Source: Lampris incognitus (Eukaryota; Chordata; Actinopteri; Lampriformes; Lampridae). Taken from it: a stretch of DNA of 64,000 nt. Below the pieces are notes generated by a model that worked only from the letters and a program-made list of their open reading frames with translations, was not told the DNA's origin and did no database searches. Below are positions 2,794-63,487 of this stretch, piece by piece (within the stretch, counting starts at the first letter, position 1; each line of letters opens with the position of its first letter). Both the position numbers and the translations under genes were made by a program. The stretch spans positions 89,501 through 153,500 of the forward strand of contig NC_079213.1 in assembly GCF_029633865.1 (NCBI RefSeq), written 5' to 3'.

Positions 2794-3005
2794 ACCATTC
2801 AGAACATGCCCCTTCTCTTGATGCTCCCATGAAAGGAACATTGAACATCATCTAAAGCACAGAGCGTGTGACTAAACCACGTCTCTGTACCCGCTTAGCG
2901 CTCAGGAAGAAGTACCCCAGCTCATCGTCGTGGGTGGCGGGACTCACTTAAGAAAAACATTTCTTACGATAAAACTAAAGAACCTATCCCTGAAAATAGG
3001 ATTAG
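2794..3005 (-). pseudogene. U3: U3 snoRNA-like copy 1 (full length, box-ordered)
   Basis: U3 is the box C/D snoRNA of the small-subunit processome; it pairs with pre-rRNA in the nucleolus. Read from 3005 down, this copy has TATTTTCAGGGATAGG (box A region), ACGACGATGAGC (box C' region, 2921-2933), CCTGAGCGCTAAGCGGG (box B, 2893-2906), AGATGATGTTC (box C, 2843-2853) and TTCTGAATGGT (box D and 3' end). The length of about 212 nt is close to vertebrate U3 (about 217 nt). Box A and the hinge are altered relative to animal U3, so I call it a pseudogene, though expression cannot be excluded. A TATAT at 3032-3036 lies about 30 bp upstream. Similarity was judged by eye. Confidence 0.72.
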
Positions 3006-3010
3006 GTTTG

Positions 3011-4883
3011 GCTAAACGTAACGGATGGCTCTATATCTTTGGGTTAGGGTAGGGGTTTCATCTGCTCTGGCACACAATCCTACAGAGAATACCACAGGAA
3101 GACACCAACTCGTCGCAGTAGCCAAGCTAACCATGGCAATGGCATTTCTGATGGAAAGTACTGAGCTTTTCAGAGTAAAAGATTTGCATAAAATGAACAA
3201 AGAGAGCTTTCTACATGTTTCACTTGAGATAAGGTTTGGGTTAGGGCTTATCTGCTCAGTCAGACAATCCCACAAAAAAATACGACAACAGAGAATAACT
3301 CTTAGCAGTAGCCAAGCTATCCATGACAGTCATTTCTGATGGAAATACTGAGATTTTCCAACTGAAAGGTTTGGATAAAATTAACAGATTGCCCTTTCTA
3401 CATCTTTCGTTTAGGGATGAGTTAGGCTAAGAGTATTGTCTGCTCAGGCAAACAATACAACAGACAATACCACATCAACAGCGACTACCTCTTCGCAGTA
3501 ACATTTCTGAACATGGAGTGATAGTTTCAGATAAAATTAATGGATTGCTCTTTCTAGATGTTTCGGTTGGGATAGGGTTAGGGTTTCACCTGCTAAAGCA
3601 GAAAATCTTACAGAGAATACCACTGCAACAGAGAATAACTTCGATAGACAAGCTAACCACGGTAATGGTATTTCTGATGGAATGTACCAAGCTGCTCAGA
3701 ATAAAATCTTGTGATAAAATTAATGGACGGCTCCTTCTACATGTTTCGCTTAGGGTAAGTGTTTTATCAGCTCAGGTAGACAATCAAACAGAGAATACCA
3801 CAGCAACAGAGTCTAACTCTTCATAGTAGCCAAACTAACCACAACAAAGTCATTTCTGATGTAAAGTACCGAGCTTCTCGGAGTGATAGTTCCGGATGAA
3901 ATTAACAGATGACTCTTTCTACATGTTTCACTTAAGAGAAAGGGTTTTATCTGCTCAGCCGGATAATCCCATAGAAGTACCACAGTACCAGACAGTGTTG
4001 GTGGTAGCCAAGCCAACCACGGCAATGGCATTTCTGACGGAGAGCAGCGAGCTTGTCGCAGCGATAGTTTTGGGTAAAATAAACGGATGGTTCTTTCTAC
4101 ATACATGTTTGGGTTGGGTTAGGGTCAGTGTTTTACCTGCTCAGGCAGACAATCCCACAGCGACAGAGACTACCACTTCGCGGTAGCCAAGCTAAACACA
4201 GAAATGACAATTTTGAAATAAAGTACCGAATTCTCGTAGTCAATTTTGGATCAAATTAACTGATGACTTTCTTCATGTTTTGGTTGACGTAGGGTTTGGG
4301 ATTGGTTAAGGGTTTTATCTACTCAGGCAAACAATCTCAGAGCAACAGAGACTAACTCTTCGCAGTAGCCAGGCTAACCACGGCAATCGGATTTCTGATG
4401 GAAAGTACCAAGCTTCTCGGAGTGAAAGTCTTGGATAAAATTAACGGACGGCTCCTTCCATGTTTCGCTTAGTTTAAGGGTTTTATCAGCTCAGGCAGAC
4501 AATCGCACAGAGAATACCACAGCAACAGAGACTAACTCTTCGCAGTAGCCAAGGTAACCACGGCAATGGCATTTCTGACAGAAAGTACCAAGCTTCTCGG
4601 AGTGAAAGTCTTGGATAAAATTAACTGACAGCTCTTTCTATATCTTTCGCTTAGTGTAAGGGTTTTATCAGCTCAGGCAGACAATCGCACAGAGAATACC
4701 ACAGCAATAGAGACTAACTCTTCGCAGTAGCCAAGCTAACCACGCCAATTGCATTCCTGAAGGAAAGAACCAAGCTTCTCGTAGTAAAAGTTTTGGAAAT
4801 AAATCAACGGATGGTCCTTGCTACATGTTTCGGTTGACATAGTGTTTGAGTTTAGTGTCAAGTGTTTCTGCTCAGGCGGACAG
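3011..4883 (+). repeat. Divergent monomers, about 10 copies
   Basis: Degenerate monomers with several short internal losses, for example near 3480-3520 where the GCCAAGCTAACC block is missing. The first copy begins at the U3 junction as GTAACGGATGGCTCTATATC. It carries GGTTTCATCTGCTCTGGCA, a form found again only at the far right edge near 63.5 kb. Nothing else is seen in this stretch. Confidence 0.8.
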
Positions 4884-5144
4884 TGCCCAAACACTGGCTC
4901 AGCGATACCCCAATATGAGAGTTATGGAGAGATTGATGGGTTCAATTTGGATATTTTTTGTTCTTTACAACTGATCTGCCACTGTCCTGTATTTTGATTA
5001 GTTTATCCCGTGTTAAACTTGAAAAATTGCTGGTGAGGTTTGGAGCATTATAAATCTTTTTTTTTTTTTTAAATTGAAGTTCTCTGCTATGGCAGTTTGT
5101 TGTTAGAGTTATGTTTCAATAAAATAGATAGATTTCTCCATTTT
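4884..5144 (-). repeat. Truncated U3-linked spacer tail (first of two in tandem)
   Basis: The tail starts abruptly inside the monomer GCTCAGGCGGACAG and lacks the outer GTTGAATGCCAGAGCC part. It continues with the shared blocks CCCAAACACTGGCT, TTTATCCCGTGTTAAACTTG, a poly-T tract and GGCAGTTTGTTGTTAGAG. It is the most diverged tail in the window. It is followed by a U3 3' fragment and then by a second, partial tail. Confidence 0.7.
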
Positions 5145-5190
5145 ACCAATCAGAGGATGCATCTTGCCTCAAAAGCACACAGCTTGAGAT
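5145..5190 (-). pseudogene. U3: U3 3'-end fragment
   Basis: On the minus strand it reads GCTTTTGAGGCAAGATGC and ends CCTCTGATTGGT. This matches the 3' terminal part, including box D, of the neighbouring copy at 5352-5525. The rest of U3 is missing and the sequence runs straight into a second spacer tail, so a break or recombination joined two U3-spacer copies here. Confidence 0.65.
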
Positions 5191-5197
5191 TATCCAC

Positions 5198-5351
5198 CGT
5201 TTATCCTGATTTAAACTTGAAAAGTTGTTGATGGGGTTTGGAGCATAAGTGATTTTTTTTTTAATTGAAATTCACTGCTATTGCAGGTTAATGTTTTTAG
5301 AGTTAGGTTTAAAATAAAAGTAATTGATGGCTTTCTCAATTTTTTTCTTTT
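5198..5351 (-). repeat. Second, partial U3-linked spacer tail
   Basis: It restarts at TTTATCCTGATTTAAACTTG, inside the tail, and runs through GATGGGGTTTGGAGC, a T-rich tract and TTGCAGGTTAATG up to the U3 3' end at 5352. With 4884-5144 it makes a direct repeat of part of the tail. Confidence 0.75.
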
Positions 5352-5525
5352 ACCACTCAGAGCACACTCTGCCTCAAAAGCAGAGCTTGTAATCAAATCA
5401 CTTCGCTGTACCTGCTTCATGCTCAGGAAGAAGCACCGCAGCTCATCATCGTGGGTGGCGGACTCACACTTAGAAACATTTTTCAAGCCAAGAACGACAG
5501 AAATGACCGCTGAAAGTGTAGTCTT
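5352..5525 (-). pseudogene. U3: U3 snoRNA-like copy 2 (best preserved 5' end)
   Basis: This copy has the clearest U3 signature in the window. Its 5' end reads AAGACTACAC then TTTCAGCGGTCATTTCTG, against vertebrate AAGACTATAC then TTTCAGGGATCATTTCTA (recalled from memory). CCACGATGATGAG (5442-5454) corresponds to the box C' region, CCTGAGCATGAAGCAGG (5411-5428) to box B, and CTCTGAGTGGT (5352-5362) to box D and the 3' terminus. The copy is only 174 nt, because about 40 nt around box C are gone. In their place CTCTGC and GCAGAG form a short stem before box D. The loss of a clear box C argues for a pseudogene. Its upstream flank differs from the other copies. Confidence 0.8.
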
Positions 5526-5730
5526 CTGAATCTTTTGGTTAGGATTAGGTTGGCATAATTTGATGGAAATGGCATTTCTGATGGAAAGTACCGAGCTTCT
5601 CGAAATGAAAGTTTTGGATAAAATTAATGGAGGTCTCTTTCTACATCTTTTGGCCAGGGTTGGCGTAGGGTTACAATGAGGGTTTTTCCTACTCAAAAGT
5701 AGTTCCACAGAGAATACCACAGCAGCAGAC
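5526..5730 (+). repeat. Single monomer between U3 copy 2 and the composite module
   Basis: A direct monomer with GGCATTTCTGATGGAAAGTA and TTTGGATAAAATTAATGGA. It enters after a short AT-rich junction (GGATTAGGTTGGCATAATTT) where the U3 5' flank would be. It ends at AGCAGCAGACACTGTCTGCC, where orientation flips. Confidence 0.8.
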
Positions 5731-6060
5731 ACTGTCTGCCTGAGCAGATAAAACTCTTATACTAAACCTATCCCAACCCTTACAGAAAGATGTAGAAAGA
5801 GCCATCCATTAATTATATCCAAACCTTAAGCTCCGTGACATTATTTTCCGTCAAATACCATTGCCGTGGTTAGCTTGACTTCTGCTAAGAATTAATCCCA
5901 CAAAGAATACCATAGCAACAGAGACTGTCTTGGCGGTTGCCAAGCTAACCATTGCAATGGCATTTCTGATGGAAAGTACAGAGCTTCTCGGTGTGAAAGG
6001 TTTGGATAAAAATCAACATACGGCTCTTTCAACACGTAAGGGTAGGGTTTGTGTTAAGGT
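5731..6060. repeat. Composite module: inverted monomer joined to direct monomer
   Basis: The inverted arm runs from ACTGTCTGCCTGAGCAGATA to TTCTGCTAAG at about 5889. The direct arm then begins AATTAATCCCACAAAGAATA and continues with GTCTTGGCGGTTGCCAAG. The reverse complement of this exact junction (TTGTGGGATTAATTCTTAG) is present in all B-type units, so the whole module was moved in the opposite orientation there. The arms could fold back on themselves. Confidence 0.85.
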
Positions 6061-6180
6061 AAAGGTTTTACCTGCTCAGGCAGAAAATCCCACAGCAACA
6101 GAGATGAACTCTTCATGTTAGCCACGCCAACCATGGCAATGGCATTTTTGATGGGAAATACTAGGCTTCTCCGAGTGAAA

Positions 6181-6547
6181 GGTAAGGGTTAGAGAATTGA
6201 ATGCCAGAGCCAACACATGTCAACCAGGCGCCTCAACAATGCCCAAATACTGGCTTACAGATACCCCCAGGTTTAGGGTTACGAATTTGGAGAGAGTTTG
6301 ATCGATTGAGTATAGGATCTATTTGGAGGTTGTTTATTCTTTACACTTGATCCCCCATTGTCTTCCCTCTTGATTAGTTTATCCCGTTTTAAACTTGAAA
6401 AGTTGTTGGTGGGGTTTGCAGCAATACAAGTGGATTTCTTTTATTGAATTGCACTTCTACAATGTTCATGTTTTTAGGGTTAGGACTAAGTTTTAGGGGT
6501 AGGTTTAGATAAAATTGATGAATTTCTACATTTTGCCCCTCCTTTTT
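6181..6547 (-). repeat. U3-linked spacer tail, third left-domain copy
   Basis: It joins the monomer at GAGTGAAAGGTAAGGGTTAG and carries GAATGCCAGAGCCAACACAT, ATCCCGTTTTAAACTTG and TTCATGTTTTTAGGGTTAGG. It is intermediate between the A-type tails (shared outer part) and the B-type tails (shared GTTTTTAGGGTTAGGACTAA). Confidence 0.8.
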
Positions 6548-6765
6548 ACCACACCGAACAGGCTCCTTCCTCTTGATAACTCCTTAAAAGCAACACTGAA
6601 CGGTCACCAAAAGCCCAGAGTGAGTGATTAAACCACTTCTCTGTACCTGCTTCGCGGTCAGGGAGAAGCACCCCAGGCTCATCATGGTGAGTGGCGAGAC
6701 TCGCACTTTAGAAAAACATTTCTCAAGATAAAAACTAAAGAAATTATCCCCGAAATTACTGTTGG
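6548..6765 (-). pseudogene. U3: U3 snoRNA-like copy 3
   Basis: Minus-strand landmarks are TTTCGGGGATAATTTCTTTAG (quoted in two parts: TTTCGGGGAT, AATTTCTTTAG; box A region), CACCATGATGAGCC (box C' region), CCTGACCGCGAAGCAGG (box B) and a degenerate 3' end GTTCGGTGTGGT where box D should be. Length is about 218 nt. Box A is closer to animal U3 here than in the amplified copies, but box D is damaged, so this is a pseudogene. Confidence 0.7.
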
Positions 6766-8582
6766 GTTTTGATAAACTCAATGGATGGCTCTATACCTTT
6801 CGGTTACGGTTGGGGTAAGAGTTTTATATGCTCTGGCAGACAATCCTACAGACAATACCACAGCAATAGAGACCAACTCGTCGCAGTAGCCAAGCTAACC
6901 ACGACAATGGTATTTCTGATGGAAAGTAGAGAGCTTCTCAGAGTAAAAGTTTCGCATAAAATTAACGGACAGCGCTTTCTACATGTTTGCTTGAGGTAGG
7001 ATTTGGGTTAGGTTAAGGGTTTTATCTGCTCAGCCACACAAACCCAAAGAAAATACCACACCAACAGAGACCAACTCTTCAGAGTAGCCTAACTAACCAC
7101 AGCAAAGTCATTTCTGATGGAAAGTACCGAGCTTCTCGGAGTGATAGTTCCGGATGAAATTAACAGACGACTCTTTCTACATGTTTCACGTAAGAGTAAG
7201 GGTTTTATCTGCTCAGCGAGATAATCCCAAAGAAATACCACGGCAACAGACAGTCTTGGTGGTAGCCAAGCCAACCATGGCAATGGCATTTCTGATGGAG
7301 AGTAGCAAGCTTCTCGCAGCGATAGTTTTGGGTAAAATAAACGGATGGCTCTTTCTACACGTTTCGGTTGGTTTAGGGTAATTGTTTTACCTGCTCAGGC
7401 AGACAATCCCACACAGAATATCAAAGCAACAGAGACTAACACTTCACGGTAGCCAAGCTAAACACAGCAATGAAAATTCTGAAATAAAGTACCGACTTTC
7501 TCGTACTCAAAATTTTGGATCAAACTAACTGACTTCATGTTTTGGTTGAGGTAGGGTTTGGGATTGGTTAAGGGTTTTATGTGCTCAGGCAAACAATCTC
7601 ACAGCAACAGAGACTAACCCTTCGCAGGAGCAAGCTCACCACGGCAATGGCATTTCGGATGGAAAGTACCCAGCTTCTCGGAGTGACAGTTTTGGATCTT
7701 ATTGACGTATGCTCTTGCTACAATGTTCCGATTAGGTTAGCGCAAGTGTTTTACCTGCTCAGACAGACAATCCCACAGCAACAGAGACTAACTTCGTCGT
7801 AGCCAAGCTAACCACAGCAATGGCACTGCTCTTTTCAAGTACCGGGTTTGGAAAAAGCTTCGGAAAAAAAATTTCACGGAGGCCGTTTCTACGTTTCACT
7901 TAGGGTAAGGGTTTTATCAGCTCAGGCAGGCAATCGCACAGAGAATACCACAGCAATAGAGACTAACTCTTCGTAGTAGCCAAGCTAACTACGGCAATGG
8001 CAGTACTGATGGAAAGTACCAAGCTTCTCGGAGTGAAAATTTTGGGTAAAATTAATAGACGGCTCTATCTACATGTTTCGCTTAGCTTTTTATCAGCTCA
8101 AGCAGTCAGTCACACAGAAAACACCACAGCAACAAAAACTAACTCTTCGTAGTAGCCAAGCTAACTACGGCAATGGCATTCCTGATGTAAAGTACCAAGC
8201 TTCTCGGAGTAAAAGTCTTGGATAAAATTAATGGACGGCTCTTTCTATGTTTCGCTTAGTGTAAGGGTTTTATCAGCTCAGACAGACAATCGCACAGAGA
8301 ATACCACAGCAACAGAGACTAACTCTTCGTAGTAGCCAAGCTAACCACAGCAATGGCATTTCTGATGTTAAGTACCAAGCTTCTCGGAGTGAAAGTCTTG
8401 GATAAAATTAATGGACGTTTCTTTTTATATGTTTCGCTTAGTGTAAGGATTTTATCAGCTCAGGCAGATCATCGCGCAGAGAATACCACAGCAACAGAGA
8501 ACAAGTCTTCGCAGTAGCCAAGCTAACCACGGCAATGGCATTTCTGATGGATAATATTGAGCTTCTCGGAGTGAAAGTTAAG
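6766..8582 (+). repeat. Transitional monomers, about 10 copies
   Basis: The first copies are diverged (GATAGTTCCGGATGAAATTA, also seen near 3885). From about 7900 they become the homogeneous type with TCTTGGATAAAATTAATGGA and TTAGTGTAAGGGTTTTATCA. This is the visible boundary between the old left domain and the homogenised array. No gene is seen. Confidence 0.8.
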
Positions 8583-8917
8583 GGTTGAATGCTGGGCCAG
8601 CGCGTGTCACCAGAGTGCCTCCGCCAGTGCTGGCTTAGAGATATCCCCAGAAATAGGGTTAGGGATGTGGATAGAGTTTGATGGATTAAGGATACGGTAA
8701 ATTTGGATGTTTCTTCTTTACAATTCACCTCCCATCTTGATTAGTTTATACTGCTTTAATTTTGAAAAGTTATTGATGGGGTTTAGAGTAATATTAGCTT
8801 CTTCTCTTTTTTTTGAAGTAGTCTGCTATTGCAATTTAATGTTTTTAGGGTAAGGGTTAGGACTAAGGTTTAGGTCTGGATAAAACTGGTGGATTTCTGA
8901 AATGTTCCCCCTTTTTA

Positions 8918-8957
8918 ACCCCTCAGAATGCGCTCCTTCCTCGAAGCTCCCATAAAG
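8918..8957 (-). pseudogene. U3: U3 3'-terminal 40-nt remnant in B unit 1
   Basis: On the minus strand it runs from CTTTATGGGAGCTTCG to ATTCTGAGGGGT, matching the end of U3 from the apical loop of the last hairpin through box D. Everything 5' of it is replaced by an A-rich linker. The same breakpoint is seen in all ten B units. Confidence 0.68.
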
Positions 8958-8990
8958 TAGCAAAAAAAAAAAAACCCAAAAAAAACAACA

Positions 8991-9345
8991 AATGTAGAAT
9001 GAGCTATCCGTTAATTTTATCCAGTCCTTTCACACCAAGAAGCTATGTACTTTCCATCAGAAACGCCACTGCAGTGGTTAGCTTGACAACCGCCAAGACA
9101 GTCTCTGTTACTATGGTATTCTTTGTGGGATTAATTCTTAGGAGTCAAGCTAACCATGGCAATGGCATTTCTGATGGGAAATACTGAGTGTCTTGGCGCT
9201 TTAGGTTGGTATACAATTAACAGATGGCTCTTTCTACATTTTAAAGGGTTGGGATAGGTTTAGTATAAGGGTTTTATCTGCACAGGCAGACAGTCTCTGT
9301 TGCTGACCAATAACCCTACACCAACCCTGACTGAAAAATGTAGAA
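8991..9345. repeat. Inverted/direct composite module in B unit 1
   Basis: An inverted monomer (AATGTAGAATGAGCTATCCG to ATTAATTCTTAG) is followed by a direct monomer from GTCAAGCTAACCATGG and a third, short inverted piece (TAACCCTACACCAACCCTGA to ATGTAGAA). It is the reverse complement of the module at 5731-6060 in arrangement. Confidence 0.85.
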
Positions 9346-10723
9346 CAAGATGGCTCTTTCTACATATTTCGCTTAGAGTATGGGTTTTATCAGCTCGGGC
9401 AGACAATGGCACAGAGAATACCACAGCAACAGAAACTAACTCTTCGCAGTAGCCAAGCTAACCACAGCAATGGCATTTCTGATGGAAGGACCAAGCTTCT
9501 CGAAGCGAAAGTTTTAGATAAAATTACTGGACGGCTCTTTCTATGTTTCGCTTAGGGTAAGGGTTTTATCAGCTCAGGCAGACAATCACACAAAGAATAT
9601 CACAGCAACAGAGACGAACTCTTCGCAGTAGCCAAGCTAACCACGGCAATAGTATTTCTGATGGAAAGTACTAAGCTTCTCGGAGTGAAAGTCTTGGATA
9701 AAATTAATGGACGTTTCTTTCTATATGTTTCGCTTAGTGTAAGGGTTTTATCAGCTCAGGCAGACAATCGCACCGAGAATACCACAGCAACAGAGACGAA
9801 CTCTTCGCAGTAGCCAAGCTAACCACAGCAGTGGCATTTCTGATGGAAGGACCAAGCTTCTCGAAGCGAAAGTTTTAGATAAAATTACTGGACGGCTCTT
9901 TCTATGTTTCGCTAAGGGTAAGGGTTTTATCAGCTCAGGCAGACAATCGCACAGAGAATACCACAGCAACAGAGACCAACTCTCTGCAGTAGCCAAGCTA
10001 ACCACAGCAGTGGCATTTCTGATGGAAAGTACCACGCTTCTCAGAGTGAAAGTCATGGATAAAATTAAGGGACGGCTCTTTCTATGTTTCGCTTAGTGTA
10101 AGGGTTTTATCAGCTCAGGCAGACAATCGCACAGAGAATAACTCTTTGCAGTAGCCAAGCTAACGACGGCAATGGCATTTCTGATGGAAAGTACCAAGCT
10201 TCTCGGAGTGAAAGTCTTGGATAAAATTAATGGATGTTTCTTTCTATATGTTTCGCTTAGTGTAAGGGTTTTATCAGCTCAGGCAGACAATCGCACAGAG
10301 AATACCACAGCAACAGAGACGAACTCTTCGCAGTAGCCAAGCTAACCACGGCAATGGCATTTCTGATGGATAATATTGAGCTTCTCGGAGTGAAGGTTGA
10401 ATGCCCGGGCCAGCGCGTGTCACCAGAATGCCTCCGCCAGTGCTGGTTTAGAGATATCCCCAGAATTAGGGATGTGGATAGAGTTTGATGGATTAAGGAT
10501 ACGGTAAATTTGGATGTTTCTTCTTTACAATTCACCTCCCATCTTGATTAGTTTACCCTGCTTTAAGCTTGAAAAGTTCTTGGTGGGGTTTAGAGTAATA
10601 TAAGCTTCTTCTCTTTTTTTTGAAGTAGTCTGCTATTGCAATTTAATGTTTTTAGGGTAAGGGTTAGGACTAAGGTTTAGGTCTGGTTAAAACTGGTGGA
10701 TTTCTGAATGTTCCCCCTTTTTA

Positions 10724-10763
10724 ACCCCTCAGAATGCACTCCTTCCTCGAAGCTCCCATAAAG
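10724..10763 (-). pseudogene. U3: U3 3'-terminal 40-nt remnant in B unit 2
   Basis: Same breakpoint and box D/3' end (ATTCTGAGGGGT on the minus strand) as the other B units; followed on the + strand by GATAAAAAAAAAAAAAA. Confidence 0.68.
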
Positions 10764-10785
10764 GATAAAAAAAAAAAAAACAACA

Positions 10786-11143
10786 AATGTAGAATGAGCT
10801 ATCTGTTAATTTTATCCAAACCTTTCACACCGAGAAGCTCTGTACTTTCCATCAGAAACGCCACTACAGTGGTTAGCTTGGCAACCGCCAAGACAGTCTC
10901 TGTTACTATGGTATTCTTTGTGGGATTAATTCTTAGCATGAGTCAAGCTAACCACGGCAATGGCATTTCTGATGGGAAATACTGAGTGTCTTGGAGCTTT
11001 AGGTTTGTATACAATTAACAGATGGCTCTTTCTACATTTTAAAGGGTTGGGATAGGTTTAGTATAAGGGTTTTATCTGCACAAGCAAACAGTCTCTGTTG
11101 CTGACCAATAACCCTACACAAACCCTGACTGAAAAATGTAGAA
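10786..11143. repeat. Inverted/direct composite module in B unit 2
   Basis: Inverted arm to about 10936, direct arm 10942-11106, short third inverted piece about 11108-11143. It carries TTCTTAGCATGAGTCAAG at the centre. Confidence 0.85.
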
Positions 11144-12512
11144 CAAGATGGCTCTTTCTACATGTTTCGCTTAAGGTATGGGTTTTATCAGCTCAGGCAG
11201 ACAATCGCACAGAGAATACCAGAGCAACAGAGACTAACTCTTCGCAGTAGCCAAGCTAACAAGGGCAATGGCATTTCTGATGGAAAGTACCAAGCTCCTC
11301 GGAGTGAAAGTCTTGGATAAAATTAATGGACGTTTCTTTCTATATGTTTCGCTTAGTGTAAGGGTTTTATCAGCTCAGGCAGACAATCGCACCGAGAATA
11401 CCACAGCAACAGAGACGAACTCTTCGCAGTAGCCAAGCTAACCACAGCAGTGGCATTTCTGATGGAAGGACCAAGCTTCTCGAAGCGAAAGTTTTAGATA
11501 AAATTACTGGACGGCTCTTTCTATGTTTCGCTAAGGGTAAGGGTTTTATCAGCTCAGGCAGACAATCGCACAGAGAATACCACAGCAACAGAGACCAACT
11601 CTCTGCAGTAGCCAAGCTAACCACGCCAATAGTATTTCTGATGGAAAGTACCAAGCTTCTCGGAGTGAAAGTCTTGGATAGAATTAATGGACGGCTCTTT
11701 TTATATGTTTCGCTTAGTGTAAGGGTTTTATCAGCTCAGGCAGACAATCGCACAGCAACAGAGACTAACTCTTCGCAGTAGCCAAGCTAACCACGGCAAT
11801 GGCATTTCTGATGGAAAGTACCACGCTTCTCAGAGTGAAAGTCATGGATAAAATTAAGGGACGGCTCTTTCTATGTTTCGCTTAGTGTAAGGGTTTTATC
11901 AGCTCAGGCAGACAATCGCACAGAGAATAACTCTTTGCAGTAGCCAAGCTAACGACGGCAATGGCATTTCTGATGGAAAGTACCAAGCTTCTCGGAGTGA
12001 AAGTCTTGGATAAAATTAATGGATGTTTCTTTCTATATGTTTCGCTTAGTGTAAGGGTTTTATCAGCTCAGGCAGACAATCGCACAGAGAATACCACAGC
12101 AACAGAGACGAACTCTTCGCAGTAGCCAAGCTAACCACGGCAATGGCATTTCTGATGGATAATATTGAGCTTCTCGGAGTGAAGGTTGAATGCCCGGGCC
12201 AGCGCGTGTCACCAGAATGCCTCCGCCAGTGCTGGTTTAGAGATATCCCCAGAATTAGGGATGTGGATAGAGTTTGATGGATTAAGGATACGGTAAATTT
12301 GGATGTTTCTTCTTTACAATTCACCTCCCATCTTGATTAGTTTACCCTGCTTTAAGCTTGAAAAGTTCTTGGTGGGGTTTAGAGTAATATAAGCTTCTTC
12401 TCTTTTTTTTGAAGTAGTCTGCTATTGCAATTTAATGTTTTTAGGGTAAGGGTTAGGACTAAGGTTTAGGTCTGGTTAAAACTGGTGGATTTCTGAATGT
12501 TCCCCCTTTTTA

Positions 12513-12552
12513 ACCCCTCAGAATGCACTCCTTCCTCGAAGCTCCCATAAAG
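12513..12552 (-). pseudogene. U3: U3 3'-terminal 40-nt remnant in B unit 3
   Basis: Matches the remnant of unit 2 base for base as far as I can see by eye. Confidence 0.68.
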
Positions 12553-12574
12553 GATAAAAAAAAAAAAAACAACA

Positions 12575-12932
12575 AATGTAGAATGAGCTATCTGTTAATT
12601 TTATCCAAACCTTTCACACCGAGAAGCTCTGTACTTTCCATCAGAAACGCCACTACAGTGTTTAGCTTGGCAACCGCCAAGACAGTCTCTGTTACTATGG
12701 TATTCTTTGTGGGATTAATTCTTAGCATGAGTCAAGCTAACCACGGCAATGGCATTTCTGATGGGAAATACTGAGTGTCTTGGAGCTTTAGGTTTGTATA
12801 CAATTAACAGATGGCTCTTTCTACATTTTAAAGGGTTGGGATAGGTTTAGTATAAGGGTTTTATCTGCACAAGCAAACAGTCTCTGTTGCTGACCAATAA
12901 CCCTACACAAACCCTGACTGAAAAATGTAGAA
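12575..12932. repeat. Inverted/direct composite module in B unit 3
   Basis: Same as unit 2 except for CAGTGTTTAGCTTGG in place of CAGTGGTTAGCTTGG, a variant shared with units 4 and 5 that marks their common origin. Confidence 0.85.
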
Positions 12933-15185: not shown

Positions 15186-15225
15186 ACCCCTCAGAATGCA
15201 CTCCTTCCTCGAAGCTCCCATAAAG
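15186..15225 (-). pseudogene. U3: U3 3'-terminal 40-nt remnant in B unit 4
   Basis: Same sequence and breakpoint as unit 3. Confidence 0.68.
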
Positions 15226-15246
15226 GATAAAAAAAAAAAAACAACA

Positions 15247-17897: not shown

Positions 17898-17919
17898 GAT
17901 AAAAAAAAAAAAAACAACA

Positions 17920-52245: not shown

Positions 52246-54393
52246 AGTAGCCAAGCTAACCACGGCAATGGCATTTCTGATGGAAAGTACCAAACTTCTC
52301 ACAGTAAAAGTTTTGGATAAAATTACTGGACGTTTCTTTCTATACGTTTCGCTTCGTGTAAGGGTTTTATAAGCTCAGACAGACAATCGCACAGAGAATA
52401 CCACAGCAACAGAGACCAACTCTTTGTAGTAGCCAAGCTAACTATTGCAATGGCATTCCTGATGGAAAGTATCAAGTTTCTTGCAGTGAAAGTTTTGGAT
52501 AAAATTAATGAACGGCTATTCTACATATTTCACTTACAGTAAGGGTTTTATATGTTCAGTCGGACAATCCCGCAGAAATACAATAGCAACAGAAACTAAG
52601 TCTTCGTGGAAGCGAAGCAAACCAAGGCAATGTCATTACTGAGGAAAAGTACCAAGCTTCTCCGAGTGAAAGTCTTGGATAAAATTAATGGACGGCTCTA
52701 TGTTTCGCTTAGTGTAAGGGTTTTATCAGCTCAGGCAGACAATCACACAGAGAATACCACAGCAACAGAGACGAACTCTTCGCAGTAGCCAAGCTAACCA
52801 CGGCAATGGCCTTTCTGATGGAAAGTACCAAGCTTCTCGGAGTGAAAGACTTAGATAAAATTAATAGACGGCTCTTTATGTTTCGCTTAGTGTAAGGGTT
52901 TTATCAGCTCAGGCAGACAATCGCACAGAGAATACCACAGCAACAGAGACGAACTCTTCGCAGTAGCCAAGCTAACCACGGCAATGGCATTTCTGATGGA
53001 AAGTACCAAACTTCTCACTGTAAAAGTTTTGGATAAAATTACTGGACGTTTCTTTCTATACGTTTCGCTTAGTGTAAGGGTTTTATAAGCTCAGACAGAC
53101 AATCGCAAAGAGAATACCACAGCAACAGAGACCAACTCTTTGTAGTAGCCAAGCTAACTATTGCAATGGCATTCCTGATGGAAAGTATCAAGTTTCTTGC
53201 AGTGAAAGTTTTGGATAAAATTAATGAACGGCTATTCTACATATTTCACTTACAGTAAGGGTTTTATATGTTCAGTCGGACAATCCCGCAGAAATACAAT
53301 AGCAACAGAAACTAAGTCTTCGTGGAAGCGAAGCAAACCAAGGCAATGTCATTACTGAGGAAAAGTACCAAGCTTCTCCGAGTGAAAGTCTTGGATAAAA
53401 TTAATGGACGGCTCTATGTTTCGCTTAGTGTAAGGGTTTTATCAGCTCAGGCAGACAATCACACAGAGAATACCACAGCAACAGAGACGAACTCTTCGCA
53501 GTAGCCAAGCTAACCACGGCAATGGCCTTTCTGATGGAAAGTACCAAGCTTCTCGGAGTGAAAGACTTAGATAAAATTAATAGACGGCTCTTTATGTTTC
53601 GCTTAGTGTAAGGGTTTTATCAGCTCAGGCAGACAATCGCACAGAGAATACCACAGCAACAGAGACGAACTCTTCGCAGTAGCCAAGCTAACCACGGCAA
53701 TGGCATTTCTGATGGAAAGTACCAAACTTCTCACTGTAAAAGTTTTGGATAAAATTACTGGACGTTTCTTTCTATACGTTTCGCTTAGTGTAAGGGTTTT
53801 ATAAGCTCAGACAGACAATCGCACAGAGAATACCACAGCAACAGAGACCAACTCTTTGTAGTAGCCAAGCTAACTATTGCAATGGCATTCCTGATGGAAA
53901 GTATCAAGTTTCTTGCAGTGAAAGTTTGGGATAAAATTAATGAACGGCTATTCTACATATTTCACTTACAGTAAGGGTTTTATATGTTCAGTCGGACAAT
54001 CCCGCAGAAATACAATAGCAACAAAAACTAAGTCTTCGTGGAAGCGAAGCAAACCAAGGCAATGTCATTACTGAGGAAAAGTACCAAGCTTCTCCGAGTG
54101 AAAGTCTTGGATAAAATTAATGGACGGCTCTATGTTTCGCTTAGTGTAAGGGTTTTATCAGCTCAGGCAGACAATCGCACAGAGAATACCACAGCAACAG
54201 AGACGAACTCTTCGCAGTAGCCAAGCTAACCACGGCAATGGCATTCCTGATGGAAAGTACCAAGCTTCTCGGAGTGAAAGACTTAGATAAAATTAATAGA
54301 CGGCTCTTTCTAGGTTTTGCTTAGTGTAAGGGTTTTATCAGCTCAGGCAGACAATCGCACAGAGAATACCACAGCAACAGAGACGAACTCTTC
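52246..54393 (+). repeat. 716-bp four-monomer repeat, three tandem copies
   Basis: The order CAAACTTCTCAC, TATTGCAATGGCATTCC, GGAAGCGAAGCAAACC, then an AGACTTAGATAAAATTAATA monomer recurs with an exact 716-bp step (marker positions 52606, 53322 and 54038). The copies differ at only a few bases. This is a local higher-order repeat inside the larger unit. Confidence 0.9.
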
Positions 54394-54719
54394 GCAGTAG
54401 CATAGCTAACCACGGCAATGGCATTTTTGATGGAAAGTACCAAGCTTCTCGGAGTTAAAGTCTTGGATAAAATTAATGGACGTTTCTTTCTATACGTTTC
54501 GCTTAGTGTGAGGGTTTTATCAGCTCAGGCACACAATCGCACAGAGAATACCACAGCAACAGAGATGAACTCTTCGCAGTAGCCAAGCTAACCACGGCAA
54601 TGGCATTTCTGATAAAAAGTACCAAGCTTCTCGGAGTGAAAGTTTTGGATAAAATTAATGGACAGCTCTTTCTACATGTTTCGCTTAGCGTTAGGGCTTT
54701 ATCAGCTCAGGCAGTCAAT

Positions 54720-56870
54720 CGCACAGAGAATACCACAGCAACAGAGACGAACTCTTCGCAGTAGCCAAGCTAACCACGGCAATGGCATTTCTGATGGAAA
54801 GTACCAAGCTTCTCGGAGTGAAAGTGTTGGATAAAATTAATGGACGTTTCTTTCTATACGTTTCGCTTAGTGTAAGGTTTTTATCAGCTCAGGCAGACAA
54901 TGACAGAGAGAATACCACAGCAACAGAGACGAACTCTTCGCAGTAGCCAAGCTAACCACGGCAATTGCATTTCTGATGGAAAGTACCAAGCTTCTCGGAG
55001 TGAAAGTCTTTGATAAAATTAATGGACGGCTCTATGTTTCGCTTAGTGTAAGGGTTTTATCAGCTCAGGCAGAAAATCGCACAGAGAATACCACAGCAAC
55101 AGAGACGAACTCTTCGCAGTAGCCAAGCTAACCACGGCAATGGCATTGCTGATGGAAAGTACCAAGCTTCTCGGAGTAAAAGACTTGGATAAAATTAATG
55201 GACGGCTCTTTCTAGGTTTCGCTTAGTGTAAGGGTTTTATCAGCTCAGTCAGACAATCGCACAGAGAATACCACAGCAACAGAGACGAACTCTTCGCAGT
55301 AGCCAAGCTAACCACGGCAATGGCATTTCTGATGGAAAGTACCAAGCTTCTCGGAGTAAAAGTCTTGGATAAAATTAATGGACGTTTCTTTCTATACGTT
55401 TCGCTTAGTGTGAGGGTTTTATCAGCTCAGGCAGACAATCGCACAGAGAATACCACAGCAACAGAGATGAACTCTTCGCAGTAGCCAAGCTAACCACGGC
55501 AATGGCATTTCTGATGGAAAGTACCAAGCTTCTCGGAGTGAAAGTCTTGGATAAAATTAATGGCCGGCTCTATGTTTCGCTTAGTGTAAGGGTTTTATCA
55601 GCTCAGGCAGACAATCGCACAGAGAATACCACAGCAACAGAGACGAACTCTTCGCAGTAGCCAAGCTAACCACGGCAATGGCATTTCTGATGGAAAGTAC
55701 CAAGCTTCTCGGAGTGAAAGTCTTGGATAAAATTAATGGACGTTTCTTTCTATACGTTTCGCTTAGTGTAAGGGTTTTATCAGCTCAGGCAGACAATCAC
55801 ACAGAGAATACCACCGCAACAGAGACGAACTCTTCGCAGTAGCCAAGGTAACCACGGCAATGGCATTTCTGATGGAAAGTACCAAGCTTCTCGGAGTGAA
55901 AGTCTTGCATAAAATTAATGGACGGCTCTTTATGTTTCGCTTAGTGTAAGGGTTTTATCAGCTCAGGCAGACAATCGCACAGAGAATACCACAGCAACAG
56001 AGACGAACTCTTCGCAGTAGCCAAGCTAACCACGGCAATGGCATTTCTGATGGAAAGTACATAGCTAATCGGAGTGAAAGTTTTGGATAAAATTAATGGA
56101 CGGCTCTTTATGTTTCGCTTATTGTAAGGGTTTTATCAGCTCAGGCAGACAATCGCACAGAGAATACCACAGCAACAGAGACGAACTCTTCGCAGTAGCC
56201 AAGCTAACCACGGCAATGGCATTTCTGATGGAAAGTACCAAGCTTCTCGGAGTGAAAGTCTTGGATATAATTAATGGACGGCTCTTTATGTTTCGCTTGG
56301 TGTAAGGGTTTTATCAGCTCAGGCAGACAATCGCACAGAGAATACCAGAACAACAGACCAACTCTTCGCAGTAGCCAAGCTAACCACGGCAATGGCATTT
56401 CTGATGGAAAGTACCAAACTTCTCACAGTAAAAGTTTTGGATAAAATTACTGGACGTTTCCTTCTATACGTTTCGCTTAGTGTAAGGGTTTTATAAGCTC
56501 AGACAGACAATCGCACAGAGAATACCACAGCAACAGAGACCAACTCTTTGTAGTAGCCAAGCTAACTATTGCAATGGCATTCCTGATGGAAAGTATCAAG
56601 TTTCTTGCAGTAAAAGTTTTGGATAAAATTAATGAACGGCTATTCTACATATTTCACTTACAGTAAGGGTTTTATATGTTCAGTCGGACAATCCCGCAGA
56701 AATACAATAGCAACAGAAACTAACTCTTCGTGGAAGCGAAGCAAACCAAGACAATGTCATTACTGAGGAAAAGCATAAAGATTCTCTGAGTGAAAGTTTT
56801 GGATAAAATTACTGGGCAGCGCTTTCCACATATTTCGCTTAGTGTAAGGGTTTTATCAGCTCAGGCAGAC
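54720..56870 (+). repeat. Left copy of a multi-monomer duplication
   Basis: Shares rare variants with 60,500-62,460: AAAGTGTTGGATAAAATT (54821 and 60601), AATGGCCGGCTCTATG (near 55560 and 60978), TTGGTGTAAGGG and CAGAACAACAGACC. The offset between the copies changes from 5780 to 5418 and then to 5600 bp. These steps equal about two monomers and one monomer, so whole monomers were lost or gained afterwards. Confidence 0.85.
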
Positions 56871-58580
56871 AATCACACAGAGAATACCACAGCAACAGAG
56901 ACGAACTCTTCGCAGTAGCCAAGCTAACCACGGCAATGGCCTTTCTGATGGAAAGTACCAAGCTTCTCGGAGTGAAAGACTTAGATAAAATTAATAGACG
57001 GCTCTTTATGTTTCGCTTAGTGTAAGGGTTTTATCAGCTCAGGCAGACAATCGCACAGAGAATACCACAGCAACAGAGACGAACTCTTCGCAGTAGCCAA
57101 GCTAACCACGGCAATGGCATTTCTGATGGAAAGTACCAAACTTCTCACTGTAAAAGTTTTGGATAAAATTACTGGACGTTTCTTTCTATACGTTTCGCTT
57201 AGTGTAAGGGTTTTATAAGCTCAGACAGACAATCGCACAGAGAATACCACAGCAACAGAGACCAACTCTTTGTAGTAGCCAAGCTAACTATTGCAATGGC
57301 ATTCCTGATGGAAAGTATCAAGTTTCTTGCAGTGAAAGTTTTGGATAAAATTAATGAACGGCTATTCTACATATTTCACTTACAGTAAGGGTTTTATATG
57401 TTCGGTCGGACAATCCCGCAGAAATACAATAGCAACAGAAACTAACTCTTCGTGGAAGCGAAGCAAACCAAGGCAATGTCATTACCGAGGAAAAGTATCA
57501 AGATTCTTTGACTGAAAAGTTTTGGATAAAATTACTGGACAGCTCTTTCCACATATTTCGCTTAGTGTAAGGGTTTTATCAGCTTAGGCAGACAATGACA
57601 GAGAATACCACAGCAACAGAGATGAACTCTTCGCAGTAGCGTAGCTAACCACGGCAATGGCATTTCTGATGGAAAGTACCAAGCTTCTCAATGTAAAAGT
57701 TTTGGATAAAATTAATGGACAGCTCTTTCTACATGTTTCGCTTAGCGTTAGGGTTTTATCAGCTCAGGCAGTCAATCGCACAGAGAATACCACAGCAACA
57801 GAGACGAACTCTTCGCAGTAGCCAAGCTAACCACGGCAATGGCATTTCTGATGATAAGTACCAAGCTTCTCGGAGTGAAAGACTTGTATAAAATTAATGG
57901 ACGGCTCTTTCTAGGTTCCGCTTAGTGTAAGGGTTTTATCAGCTCAGTCAGACAATCGCACAGAGAATACCACAGCAACAGAGACGAACTCTTCGCAGTA
58001 GCCAAGCTAACCACGGCAATGGCATTTCTGATGGAAAGTAGGAAGCTTCTCGGAGTGAAAGTTTTGGATAAAATTAATGGACGGCTCTTTCTACATGTTT
58101 CGCTTAGCGTTTTGTCAGCTCAGGCAGTCAATCGCACAGAGAATACCACAGCAACAGAGACCAACTCTTCGCGGTAGCCAAGCTAACCACGGCAAGGGCA
58201 TTTCAGATTGAAAATACTAGGTTAACTTTATGGTTAGGGTTGAATGCCAGAGCCAACACATGTCAACTGAGCACCTCCGCCATACCCTAGTGCTGGATTA
58301 GAAATACCCCAAAGATTACGGTTAGGGATAGAGTTTGATTGGTTAAGTCTAGGGGCAATTTGGGTGTTTATTCGTTACAACTGATCTCCCATTGTCTTAT
58401 ATCTTGATTACTTTATCCCGTTTTAAACTTGAAATGTTGTTGGTGGGGTTTGGAACAATACAAGTGTTTTTTTGTTTTTGTTTTTTAAATTTAATTTTTC
58501 TGCAATTGCAATTTAATGTTTTAAGAGTTAAGACTAAGGTTTAGATCAAATTGATGAATTTCTGCACTTTTTTCCTTTTT

Positions 58581-58792
58581 ACCACTCAGAACATGCCCCT
58601 TCTCTTGATGCTCCCATGAAAGGAACATTGAACATCATCTAAGGACAGAGCTTGTGATTAAACCACTTCTCTGTACCACATTAGCGCTCAGGAAGAAGCA
58701 CCCCAGCTCATCATCGTGGGTGGCGGAACTCACTTTAGAAAAACATTTCTCACGATGAAACTAAAAGAACTTATCCCCGAAAGTACGATTAG
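58581..58792 (-). pseudogene. U3: U3 snoRNA-like copy in A unit 5
   Basis: 212 nt, same box order. It differs slightly from units 1-4: GGAACAT instead of GGAGCAT (an imperfect last hairpin, as in the left-domain copy 1), AAGGACAGAGC and AAAGTACGATTAGG. Confidence 0.74.
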
Positions 58793-59993
58793 GTTTTGCT
58801 AAACGTAACGGATGGCTCTATATCTTTCGGTTACGGTTGGGGTAAGGGTTTCATCATCTCAGGCAGACAATCGCACAGAGAATACCACAGCAACAGCGAC
58901 GAACTCTTCACAGTAGCAGAGCTAACCACGGCAATAGCATTCCTGATGGAAAGTATCAAGTTTCTTGCAGTAAAAGTTTTGGATAAAATTAATGAACGGC
59001 TATTCTACATATTTCACTTACAGTAAGGGTTTTATATGTTCAGTCGGACAATCCCGCAGAAATACAATAGCAACAGAAACTAGCTCTTCGTGGAAGCGAA
59101 GCAAACCAAGACAATGTCATTACTGAGGAAAAGTATAAAGATTCTCTGAGTGAAAGTTTTGGATAAAATTACTGGACAGCTCTTTCCACATATTTCGCTT
59201 AGTGTAAGGGTTTTAGCAGCTCAGGCAGACAATCGCACAGAGAATACCACAGGAACAGAGACGAACTCTTCGCAGTAGCCAAGCTAACCACGGCAATGGC
59301 ATTTCTGATGGAAAGTACCAAGCTACTCGGAGTGAAAGTTTTGGATAAAATTAATGGACAGCTCTTTCTACATATTTCGCTTAGTGTAAGGGTTTTATCA
59401 GCTCAGGCAGACAATCGCACAGAGAATACCACAGGAACAGAGACGAACTCTTCGCAGTAGCCAAGCTAACCACGGCAATGGCATTTCAGATGGAAAGTAC
59501 CAAGCTTCTCGGAGTGAAAGTCTTGGATAATATTAATGGACGGCTCTTTATGTTTCGCTTAGTGTAAGGGTTTTATCAGCTCAGGCAGAATATCGCACAG
59601 AGAATACCACAGCAACAGAGACGAACTCTTCGCAGTAGCCAAGCTAACCACGGCAATGGCATTTCTGATGGAAAGTACGAAGCTTCTCGGAGAGAAAGAC
59701 TTGGATAAAATTAATAGACGGCTCTTTCTAGGTTTCGCTTAGTGTAAGGGTTTTATCAGCTCAGGCAGACAATCGCACAGTGAATACCACAGCAACAGAG
59801 ATGAACTCTTCGCAGTAGCCAAGCTAACCACGGCAATGGCATTTCTGATGGAAAGTACCAAGCTTCTCGGAGTGAAAGTCTTGGATAAAATTAATGGACG
59901 TTTCTTTCTATACGTTTCGCTTAGTGTAAGGGTTTTATCAGCTCAGGCAGAAAATCACACAGAGAATACCACAGCAACAGAGACGAGCTCTTC

Positions 59994-60175
59994 GCAGTAG
60001 CCAAGCTAACCACGGCAATGGCATTTCTGATGGAAAGTACCAAGCTTCTCGGAGTGAAAGTCTTGGATAAAATTAATGGACGGCTCTTTCTACATGTTTC
60101 GCTTAGCGTTAGGGTTTTATCAGCTCAGGCAGACAATCGCACAGAGAATACCACAGCAACAGAGACGAACTCTTC
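59994..60175 (+). repeat. Reference full-length satellite monomer (182 bp)
   Basis: This copy can serve as the type monomer. It runs from one GCAGTAG to the next and carries every landmark, including the HindIII-type AAGCTT and the longer middle section CTCTTTCTACATGTTTCGCT. Shorter variants lose bases at that place (CTCTATGTTTCG, for example 60720-60895, 176 bp). I see no internal half-repeat, so about 180 bp is the true basic period rather than a dimer of a shorter unit. It contains no usable open reading frame of its own length. Confidence 0.9.
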
Positions 60176-60499
60176 GCAGTAGCCAAGCTAACCACGGCAA
60201 TGGCATTTCTGATGGAAAGTACCAAGCTTCTCAGAGTGAAAGTTTTGGATAAAATTAATGGACAGCTCTTTCTCCATGTTTCGCTTAGCGTTAGGGTTTT
60301 ATCAGCTCAGGCAGTCAATCGCATAGAGAATACCACAGCAACAGAGACGAACTCTTCGCAGTAGCCAAGCTAACCGCGGCAATGGCATTTCTGATGGAAA
60401 GTACCAAGCTTCTCGGAGTGAAAGGCTTAGATAAAATTAATAGACGGCTCTTTCTAGGTTTTGCTTAGCTTAAGGGTTTTATCAGCTCAGGCAGACAAT

Positions 60500-62460
60500 C
60501 GCACAGAGAATACCACAGCAACAGAGACGAACTCTTCGCAGTAGCCAAGCTAACCACGGCAATGGCATTTCTGATGGAAAGTACCAAGCTTCTCGGAGTG
60601 AAAGTGTTGGATAAAATTAATGGACGTTTCTTTCTATACGTTTCGCTTAGTGTAAGGTTTTTATCAGCTCAGGCAGACAATGACAGAGAGAATACCACAG
60701 CAACAGAGACGAACTCTTCGCAGTAGCCAAGCTAACCACGGCAATTGCATTTCTGATGGAAAGTACCAAGCTTCTCGGAGTGAAAGTCTTTGATAAAATT
60801 AATGGACGGCTCTATGTTTCGCTTAGTGTAAGGGTTTTATCAGCTCAGGCAGAAAATCGCACAGAGAATACCACAGCAACAGAGACGAACTCTTCGCAGT
60901 AGCCAAGCTAACCACGGCAATGGCATTTCTGATGGAAAGTACCAAGCTTCTCGGAGTGAAAGTCTTGGATAAAATTAATGGCCGGCTCTATGTTTCGCTT
61001 AGTGTAAGGGTTTTATCAGCTCAGGCAGACAATCGCACAGAGAATACCACAGCAACAGAGACGAACTCTTCGCAGTAGCCAAGCTAACCACGGCAATGGC
61101 ATTTCTGATGGAAAGTACCAAGCTTCTCGGAGTGAAAGTCTTGGATAAAATTAATGGACGTTTCTTTCTATACGTTTCGCTTAGTGTAAGGGTTTTATCA
61201 GCTCAGGCAGACAATCACACAGAGAATACCACCGCAACAGAGACGAACTCTTCGCAGTAGCCAAGGTAACCACGGCAATGGCATTTCTGATGGAAAGTAC
61301 CAAGCTTCTCGGAGTGAAAGTCTTGCATAAAATTAATGGACGGCTCTTTATGTTTCGCTTAGTGTAAGGGTTTTATCAGCTCAGGCAGACAATCGCACAG
61401 AGAATACCACAGCAACAGAGACGAACTCTTCGCAGTAGCCAAGCTAACCACGGCAATGGCATTTCTGATGGAAAGAACCTAGCTACTCGGAGTGAAAGTT
61501 TTGGATAAAATTAATGGACAGCTCTTTCTACATGTTTCGCTTAGCGTTAGGGTTTTATCAGCTCAGGCAGTCAATCGCACAGAGAATACCACAGCAACAG
61601 AGACGAACTCTTCGCAGTAGCCAAGCTAACCACGGCAATGGCATTTCTGATGGAAAGTACATAGCTAATCGGAGTGAAAGTTTTGGATAAAATTAATGGA
61701 CGGCTCTTTATGTTTCGCTTATTGTAAGGGTTTTATCAGCTCAGGCAGACAATCGCACAGAGAATACCACAGCAACAGAGACGAACTCTTCGCAGTAGCC
61801 AAGCTAACCACGGCAATGGCATTTCTGATGGAAAGTACCAAGCTTCTCGGAGTGAAAGTCTTGGATATAATTAATGGACGGCTCTTTATGTTTCGCTTGG
61901 TGTAAGGGTTTTATCAGCTCAGGCAGACAATCGCACAGAGAATACCAGAACAACAGACCAACTCTTCGCAGTAGCCAAGCTAACCACGGCAATGGCATTT
62001 CTGATGGAAAGTACCAAACTTCTCACAGTAAAAGTTTTGGATAAAATTACTGGACGTTTCCTTCTATACGTTTCGCTTAGTGTAAGGGTTTTATAAGCTC
62101 AGACAGACAATCGCACAGAGAATACCACAGCAACAGAGACCAACTCTTTGTAGTAGCCAAGCTAACTATTGCAATGGCATTCCTGATGGAAAGTATCAAG
62201 TTTCTTGCAGTAAAAGTTTTGGATAAAATTAATGAACGGCTATTCTACATATTTCACTTACAGTAAGGGTTTTATATGTTCAGTCGGACAATCCCGCAGA
62301 AATACAATAGCAACAGAAACTAACTCTTCGTGGAAGCGAAGCAAACCAAGACAATGTCATTACTGAGGAAAAGCATAAAGATTCTCTGAGTGAAAGTTTT
62401 GGATAAAATTACTGGGCAGCGCTTTCCACATATTTCGCTTAGTGTAAGGGTTTTATCAGC
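60500..62460 (+). repeat. Right copy of the multi-monomer duplication
   Basis: Counterpart of 54,720-56,870. It lacks two monomers near 60,900 (the AAAAGACTTGG and GTAAAAGTCTTGG members present near 55,180-55,400) and has one extra monomer near 61,480. Confidence 0.85.
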
Positions 62461-62909
62461 TCAGGCAGACAATCGCACAGAGAATACCACCGCAACAGAG
62501 ACGAACTCTTCGCAGTAGCCAAGCTAACCACGGCAATGGCATTTCTGGTGGAAAGTACCAAGCTACTCGGAGAGAAAGTTTTGGATAAAATTAATGGACA
62601 GCTCTTTCTACATATTTCGCTTAGCGTTAGGGTTTTATCAGCTCAGGCAGACAATCACACAGAGAATACCACCGCAACAGAGACGAACTCTTCGCAGCAG
62701 CCAAGCTAACCACGGCAATAGCATTTCTGATGGAAAGTACCTAGCTACTCGGAGTGAAAGTTTTGGATAAAATTAATGGACAGCTCTTTCTACATGTTTC
62801 GCTTAGCGTTAGGGTTTTATCAGCTCAGGCAGTCAATCGCACAGAGAATACCACAGCAACAGAGACCAACTCTTCGCGGTAGCCAAGCTAACCAGGGCAA
62901 GGGCCTTTC

Positions 62910-63275
62910 AGATTGAAAATACTAGGTTAACTTTATGGTTAGGGTTGAATGCCAGAGCCAACACATGTCAACTGAGCACCTCCGCCAATGCCCAAGTGCT
63001 GGAAAGAAATACCCCAAAGATTACGGTTAGGGATAGAGTTTGATTGGTTAAGTTTAGGGGCAATTTGGGTGTTTATTCGTTACAACTGATCTCCCATTGT
63101 CTTATATCTTGATTACTTTATCCCGTTTTAAACTTAAAATGTTGTTGGTGGGGTTTGGAACAGTACAAGTGTTTTTTTTTTTAATTGAACTTTTCTGCAA
63201 TTGCAATTTAATGTTTTAAGAGTTAAGACTAAGGTTTAGATCAAATTGATGAATTTCTGCAATTTTTTCCTTTTT
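62910..63275 (-). repeat. U3-linked spacer tail of A unit 6
   Basis: Like the other A tails, but with GTGCTGGAAAGAAATACC and a plain T run before AATTGAACTTTTCTGC, as in the left-domain tail at 2423-2793. It is therefore closer to the old copy than the tails of A units 1-5 are. Confidence 0.8.
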
Positions 63276-63487
63276 ACCACTCAGAACATGCCCCTTCTCT
63301 TGATGCTCCCATGAAAGGAACATTGAACATCATCTAAGGCACAGAGATTGTGATTAAACCACTTCTCTGTACCAGCTTAGCGCTGAGGAAGAAGCACCCC
63401 AGCTCATCATCATGGGCGGTGGAGCTCACTTTAGAAAAACATTTCTCACGATAAAACTAAAGAACTTATCCCCGAAAGGAGGATTAG
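63276..63487 (-). pseudogene. U3: U3 snoRNA-like copy in A unit 6
   Basis: 212 nt with boxes in order. Box C' region is TGATGATGAGC, box B CCTCAGCGCTAAGCTGG, box C AGATGATGTTC, 3' end GTTCTGAGTGGT. Box B retains more of the U3 pattern (CTAAGC) than in units 1-5 (CTAATG). The flanking monomer has GGTTTCATCTGCCCTGGCA, a form otherwise seen only beside copy 1 at 3050. Confidence 0.75.

Follow-up and report, generated by a model that had tools for sequence, protein, structure and literature searches.

U3 snoRNA-derived sequences inserted in a subtelomeric satellite of Lampris incognitus

This report concerns a 64,000-bp stretch of DNA from the fish Lampris incognitus (assembly GCF_029633865.1; 1.48 Gb in 537 contigs), called the window below, and the sequences derived from the U3 small nucleolar RNA (snoRNA) that are built into it. 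The window covers positions 89501-153500 of contig C3 (NC_079213.1). The genome has a RAG1 match in two pieces, of which a fragment scores best against PDB entry 3jbw, from zebrafish (523 bits, with mouse RAG1 at 467), as in a jawed vertebrate and probably a ray-finned fish; a search of the genome for COX1 gave no match. From end to end (1..64000, plus strand) it is an array of a subtelomeric satellite with a monomer of about 182 bp, recognized with Tandem Repeats Finder (TRF), with nhmmer and from a 182-nt consensus built from 196 monomers. The monomers run head to tail in long arrays by TRF, nhmmer and genome-wide pattern counts alike, and are thus satellite DNA in the ordinary sense; nhmmer finds 208 of them in the window, 12 on the minus strand.

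Exactly nine sequences in the window match the Rfam U3 model RF00012 at its gathering threshold, all on the minus strand and each spanning model positions 1-219. They lie at 2794..3005 (74.0 bits), 5352..5525 (63.1 bits), 6548..6763 (72.9 bits), 39989..40201, 42704..42916, 44881..45093 and 49396..49608 (92.3 bits each), 58581..58792 (86.1 bits) and 63276..63487 (86.9 bits), against a gathering score of 34, with E-values from 5.6e-19 to 1.9e-11. No other RNA family reaches its gathering score in an Rfam scan of the window; vertebrate telomerase RNA (in the monomer), mir-651 and VR-RNA give weak matches only, far below that level. The nine copies are U3 sequences, as a first-pass annotation made from the letters alone had proposed, and the RF00012 run on the minus strand that it suggested as a check places all of them where it had drawn them, apart from the third, which ends at 6763 and not at 6765. 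The boxes stand in U3 order, and box C is deleted in the 5352 copy, again as first described; that copy keeps the +1 end. The 3' end given at that stage, TCTGAGTGGT, is exact in seven of the nine; the copy at 2794 has TCTGAATGGT instead, and that at 6548 ends in TTCGGTGTGGT. Four of the nine copies are identical to one another, and the farthest pair is 66% identical.

What accompanies U3 in the array? By nhmmer coverage, 19 stretches of the window, each of 359 to 678 bp, are free of monomer sequence, and when aligned in the U3 orientation all 19 prove to be one insert, with U3 followed by a body some 350 bp in length. Most of the long inserts have an A-rich run (AAAAAGGAAAAAA or similar) that comes directly after TGGT and separates U3 from the body. 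The bodies that follow the nine long U3 copies, delimited by coverage gap and alignment and likewise on the minus strand, occupy 2467..2793, 4885..5351 (which holds, in tandem, another partial U3 end and body), 6197..6547, 39630..39988 (the query of the genome-wide body search), 42367..42703, 44535..44880, 49050..49395, 58241..58580 and 62942..63275. The other ten inserts are truncated at the U3 5' side and retain only its last 39-42 nt, remnants that align locally with scores of 24-27, where 500 shuffles give 13 at most. These minus-strand inserts are 8617..8956 (remnant 8918-8956), 10400..10765 (10724-10765), 12189..12554 (12513-12554), 14862..15227 (15186-15227), 17534..17899 (17858-17899), 20254..20591 (20553-20591), 22953..23290 (23252-23290), 26554..26893 (26855-26893), 30156..30495 (30457-30495) and 35180..35519 (35481-35519). 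The first-pass annotation, which counted nine spacers with U3, was therefore correct for the long copies and incomplete for the insert as a whole. That U3 lies inside the satellite is confirmed. The term higher-order repeat is a loose one, as the spacers are irregularly spaced, 1.3 to 9.2 kb apart.

The inserts also enter the monomer at a recurring position. On the left, insert and monomer join at monomer position 91-92 in 11 of the 19 spacers and at 71 in seven, and the monomer resumes at 94-99 in eight of the nine long-U3 spacers; the 5352 spacer is rearranged, with junctions at 135 and 45. The ten short inserts run into an inverted monomer that resumes at 121-126. We read the junction at 71 as a later loss beside the same site. 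Eighteen of the 19 inserts are consistent with a single site in the 182-bp monomer, and the whole set can be read as one ancestral insertion with later local changes. The minus-strand monomers of this plus-strand array lie at 2002-2166, 5732-5897, 8986-9133 and 10781-10942, with eight more up to 35681, and ten of the 12 adjoin truncated U3 inserts.

The monomer itself contains no U3. A monomer pattern occurs at 4278 places in the genome (at most three mismatches), a pattern from the U3 box C' region at 353, possibly including a few canonical genes, and one from the insert body at 312; the reversed-pattern controls gave 0 in each case. Because the monomer lacks U3, is about 12 times commoner by these counts and is interrupted by U3 and body at one position, it is unlikely that U3 seeded the satellite, which had been offered earlier as one of two possible origins; co-amplification of U3 with the satellite, suggested at the same time, is supported. 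An exact monomer pattern had no matches in collections of viral contigs and genome contigs.

Genome-wide, 63 of 8272 first-look candidates were scored with RF00012, so that the genome counts of U3 are lower bounds. Of these 63 matches, 50 are found close to a contig end, at distances of 9 to 210 kb (median 87 kb) and on at least 25 ends, two of which belong to the short contigs C42 and C527. The remaining 13 are interior and comprise ten canonical-looking loci and three retrocopies. Judged by eye, the monomer places listed (100 of 4278) are near contig ends or on an unplaced contig; 99 of the body places listed (100 of 312) are near contig ends, with C11:62,535,164 not placed relative to an end; and the body search (40 scored of 751 candidates) gave places near contig ends or on the unplaced contig C378. 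The satellite is subtelomeric.

The distribution of the body bears on a different view of the insert, namely that it is a short interspersed element (SINE) with a U3 head, a body and a tail like that of a long interspersed element (LINE), which landed in the satellite several times. A constant body behind a U3 head and truncation from the U3 side in ten spacers would fit such an element, and U3 retrocopies and a U3/LINE fusion do exist elsewhere in the genome. It is difficult, however, to reconcile repeated landings with the recurrence of one monomer site, with the absence of the body from all three interior retrocopies (loci L018, L019 and L023), and with a body that, in the places listed and scored above and leaving C11:62,535,164 unplaced, is not seen dispersed outside the subtelomeric satellite. 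We regard such an element as improbable, and it was rejected as a candidate for lack of dispersed bodies among the matches listed.

The polarity of the U3 copies, which like the subtelomeric position escaped the first-pass annotation, is nearly fixed. Of the 50 subtelomeric matches, 47 point outward, 5' to 3' toward the telomere, and the other three are all at the low end of C2 (matches on C5, C11 and C21 were assigned to the low end by position alone). Among the 100 of 353 U3 pattern places listed, 84 point outward, seven inward (again all at C2 low) and nine, on contigs of unknown length, are unassigned. At C1 high and C3 high, TTAGGG tracts follow the U3 arrays on their distal side; among the 100 places listed, none with zero mismatches is at C1 low or C3 low. 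At C2 low, plus-strand TTAGGG is found at 245.8 kb, beyond plus-strand U3 copies at 182-211 kb, so that the whole of this end looks inverted as a block, whether in reality or through an assembly error, and its U3 copies likewise point toward telomeric repeats.

How did one insert come to occupy so many ends? Eight ends were compared, and the identities given here are those among the matches listed, which take in C3 high in part and leave out C6 high. The high end of C25 is 97.8% identical to C13 high over 8.3 kb, 98.7% to C27 low over 8.0 kb, 97.3% to C10 high over 7.9 kb, 95.1% to contig C42 over 8.0 kb and 90.9% to C1 high over 3.7 kb. Non-homologous ends have in common both the outer portion of the array and what lies beyond it. 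Near-identical blocks on different ends make exchange between chromosome ends the likely means of spread.

The ten best RF00012 matches in the genome (146 to 166 bits) are canonical-looking U3 genes that start AAGACTAT, one on C6 and nine on C26, six of the latter in a tandem cluster; the C26 genes have upstream sequence in common. These are two diverged classes, with CAGA at the box D position in the C26 genes (L002-L008) and CTGA in the single C6 gene (L001), which is 75% identical to a C26 gene. As for the interior retrocopies, that at L019 (4770-4979) is near full length and lies between CTCTTGTAGCTTC and CTCTTGTAGATTC, a 13-bp repeat with one base different; it adjoins what by eye looks like a hAT transposase gene. 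At L018 (5016-5225) U3 is joined to a LINE, with a downstream frame that matches the endonuclease family PF03372; the junction resembles U3/LINE-1 chimeras. The third retrocopy, L023, is truncated. Identity to a C26 gene is 88-90% for L018 and L019 and 69-82% for the satellite copies.

For a closer comparison, 25 distinct satellite copies were collected from the window and from loci L011-L026 other than L018, L019 and L023, nine of the loci having been picked for their RF00012 match; matched stretches of at least 140 nt were kept, shorter ones dropped and identical ones merged. In a tree, all 25 fall in one group (ultrafast bootstrap 87), which adjoins the retrocopies L018 and L019 and the C26 cluster. 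The satellite U3 thus probably descends from a C26-like rather than a C6-like gene; the tree was rooted on the C6 gene by choice, and for that reason it does not prove this descent. One site in 18 of 19 inserts together with one group of 25 copies makes a single capture event likely.

The first-pass annotation supposed that a U3 gene had been captured, and this finds no support. At E 0.01, neither the window nor any of the 16 loci L011-L026 matches the 300 nt upstream of five U3 genes (C6, and C26 at 28.5 Mb and 10.5 Mb); for the downstream flank of the same genes, the sole match there is a U3-like fragment that matches U3 itself. Capture of a U3 gene with its promoter was rejected on these results. 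The start of the 5352 copy, AAGACTAC, coincides with that of the RNA, and a sister copy at L015:3923 keeps GACTAC. With an exact 3' end in seven of nine copies, a 5' end preserved in the 5352 type alone and gene flanks not found, the satellite copies are in these respects like a U3 retropseudogene. With no gene flanks found there, and with 5352-type copies whose 5' end is that of the RNA, a copy derived from RNA fits better, and we conclude that a copy of the RNA rather than the gene was probably captured, presumably after reverse transcription.

Several observations weigh against so simple a history. The first 8 nt of U3, which include the GAC box, are replaced in 18 of the 25 distinct copies, mostly by TAATCCT or TCATCCT, are kept as GACTAC in two, and are partial or unaligned in five; because of these replacements few copies show the exact 5' end. 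At the satellite insert, where the monomer is interrupted at 92/94 and the flanks are diverged, we see no target-site duplication, and the A-rich run falls short of a clean poly(A) tail. The interior retrocopy L023 falls inside the satellite group of the tree, with low support. A DNA-level route of capture is possible, and one version of it, in which a U3 gene was captured as DNA and its flanks were later lost, would suit the body of obscure origin that directly follows the U3 3' end; given that flanks of five genes are not found beyond U3 itself in the window or L011-L026 and that the 5352 copy begins at the RNA start, we hold this version to be quite improbable.

The motifs of the satellite copies are damaged. 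Box C, TTGATGA, is changed or deleted in all 25 distinct copies, and TAGATGATGTTC is one satellite-specific form of it; box A reads GGATAATTTCTTTAGT in the satellite consensus and GGATCATTTCTATAGT in the gene. The C' core TGATGA is kept in 22 of the 25 and the box D sequence CTGA in 20, where the C26 genes have CAGA, and this conservation is unremarkable, as 15-37% of same-length segments vary as little. CpG positions differ about twice as often as others (0.41 vs 0.14-0.21). Boxes are more variable among the satellite copies than other positions are (0.114 vs 0.083), and paired sites more variable than unpaired sites (0.103 vs 0.080); in a set of 40 copies, biased because a C'-region pattern served to select 30 of its loci, boxes including the 5' end differ from the gene more than the rest does (0.229 vs 0.192). 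Most likely, the satellite copies are decayed passengers without function.

Other results of the same comparison point in the opposite direction. Relative to the gene, the 25 copies have 117 broken stem pairs against a permuted expectation of 244, a count so low that none of 1000 permutations reached it; measured from the satellite consensus there are 81 against 115 expected (P 0.014), and in the 40-copy set 224 against 439 (P 0.001). At non-CpG sites, divergence from the gene is lower in the boxes, the 5' end left aside, than elsewhere (0.142 vs 0.208). The depletion of broken pairs could reflect constraint; it is no proof of it, since the permutation ignores both the relatedness of the copies and differences that the parent gene had acquired before capture. 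Compensatory double changes are not in excess (33 vs 23.9, P 0.25; 5 vs 4.8, P 0.48; 62 vs 41.7, P 0.23). With box and stem results mixed, selection on boxes or stems was dropped as a strong claim.

Might the copies nevertheless still be functional, adding to the U3 genes or supplying a U3-like RNA? Their RF00012 scores of 63-92 bits are good, the C' core and box D are mostly present and broken pairs are depleted. Yet the 5' end is replaced in most copies, box C is intact in none, box A is changed in the consensus, the gene upstream sequence is not found in the window or L011-L026, and C' and D are not unusually conserved in copies that have no compensatory excess; we consider continued function very improbable. 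The preserved C' cores and D boxes and the depletion of broken pairs also allow the conjecture, to which we give the least credence of all, that the arrays are transcribed toward the telomere and that U3 segments in the RNA could still bind box C/D proteins through C'/D. Such transcription, conjectured on the same footing, would have the polarity of telomeric-repeat RNA, and if it occurred, the arrays would tie chromosome ends to the nucleolus.

The history that best accommodates these results, and one that we think probable as a whole, begins with a U3 snoRNA copy, most likely a reverse transcript, that would have entered a single monomer of the 182-bp subtelomeric satellite, where it is joined to the roughly 350-bp body of obscure origin. 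Unequal exchange within arrays would then have copied the interrupted monomer along with its neighbours, and exchange between non-homologous chromosome ends would have carried U3 to at least 25 contig ends in near-uniform polarity. As passengers, the copies would have diverged into several sequence families, some becoming truncated, inverted or deleted along the way.

The first-pass annotation knew of no described satellite of this make-up, and we likewise found no U3-bearing satellite in the open-access library searched, which leaves most subscription papers outside its coverage. The 5SHindIII satellite of the fish Hoplias malabaricus is said to be derived from 5S, and would thus resemble the present satellite in being a fish satellite related to a small RNA gene, but with 5S as its source and no U3. 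The closest analogue among the papers listed is the PcP190 satellite of frogs, a tandem repeat of about 190 bp derived from 5S rDNA, for which evidence of transcription is reported (PMC11675491). Like the present satellite, it is a tandem repeat holding a conserved part that resembles the transcribed region of a small structural RNA gene; it differs in that the part is 5S-like and lies within the repeat unit, whereas here the U3 insert occurs once in kilobases. Through precedents of the PcP190 type, a satellite containing small-RNA-gene sequence is a known kind of element. Insertion of U3 through LINE machinery is familiar from U3 retrocopies and from U3/LINE-1 chimeras, with U3 involved in 8.5% of 253 catalogued chimeras (PMC13174262); those are single insertions, not amplified in a satellite. 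The SINE-derived satellites of scaled reptiles are likewise tandem amplifications of a retroposed element, with a SINE as source and no snoRNA (PMC10702118). What appears to be new is that the sequence is U3, that it sits at many chromosome ends and that its polarity is nearly fixed.

Copies of a structural RNA can thus spread to many chromosome ends and become part of them in a consistent orientation. The U3 insert offers a ready landmark for tracing exchange between non-homologous ends, since it recurs once every several kilobases and its copies belong to distinct sequence families. For annotation there is a practical consequence, as automatic use of Rfam would list many U3 'genes' at chromosome ends, where the canonical-looking ones number at least ten loci on two contigs.

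A few further features of these ends were seen in passing. In locus L041, at the high end of C3, an internal U3 segment near locus position 1425 is, by eye, inverted between CTTTAG and CTAAAG arms. Contig C3 reads N from about 15 kb to at least 20 kb, and its start (L009-L010) contains reverse-transcriptase-like sequence that by eye resembles Penelope-like elements. The ends of C25 and C9 (L057 and L058) both stop in the same sequence, hAT-like by eye, and not in telomeric repeats.

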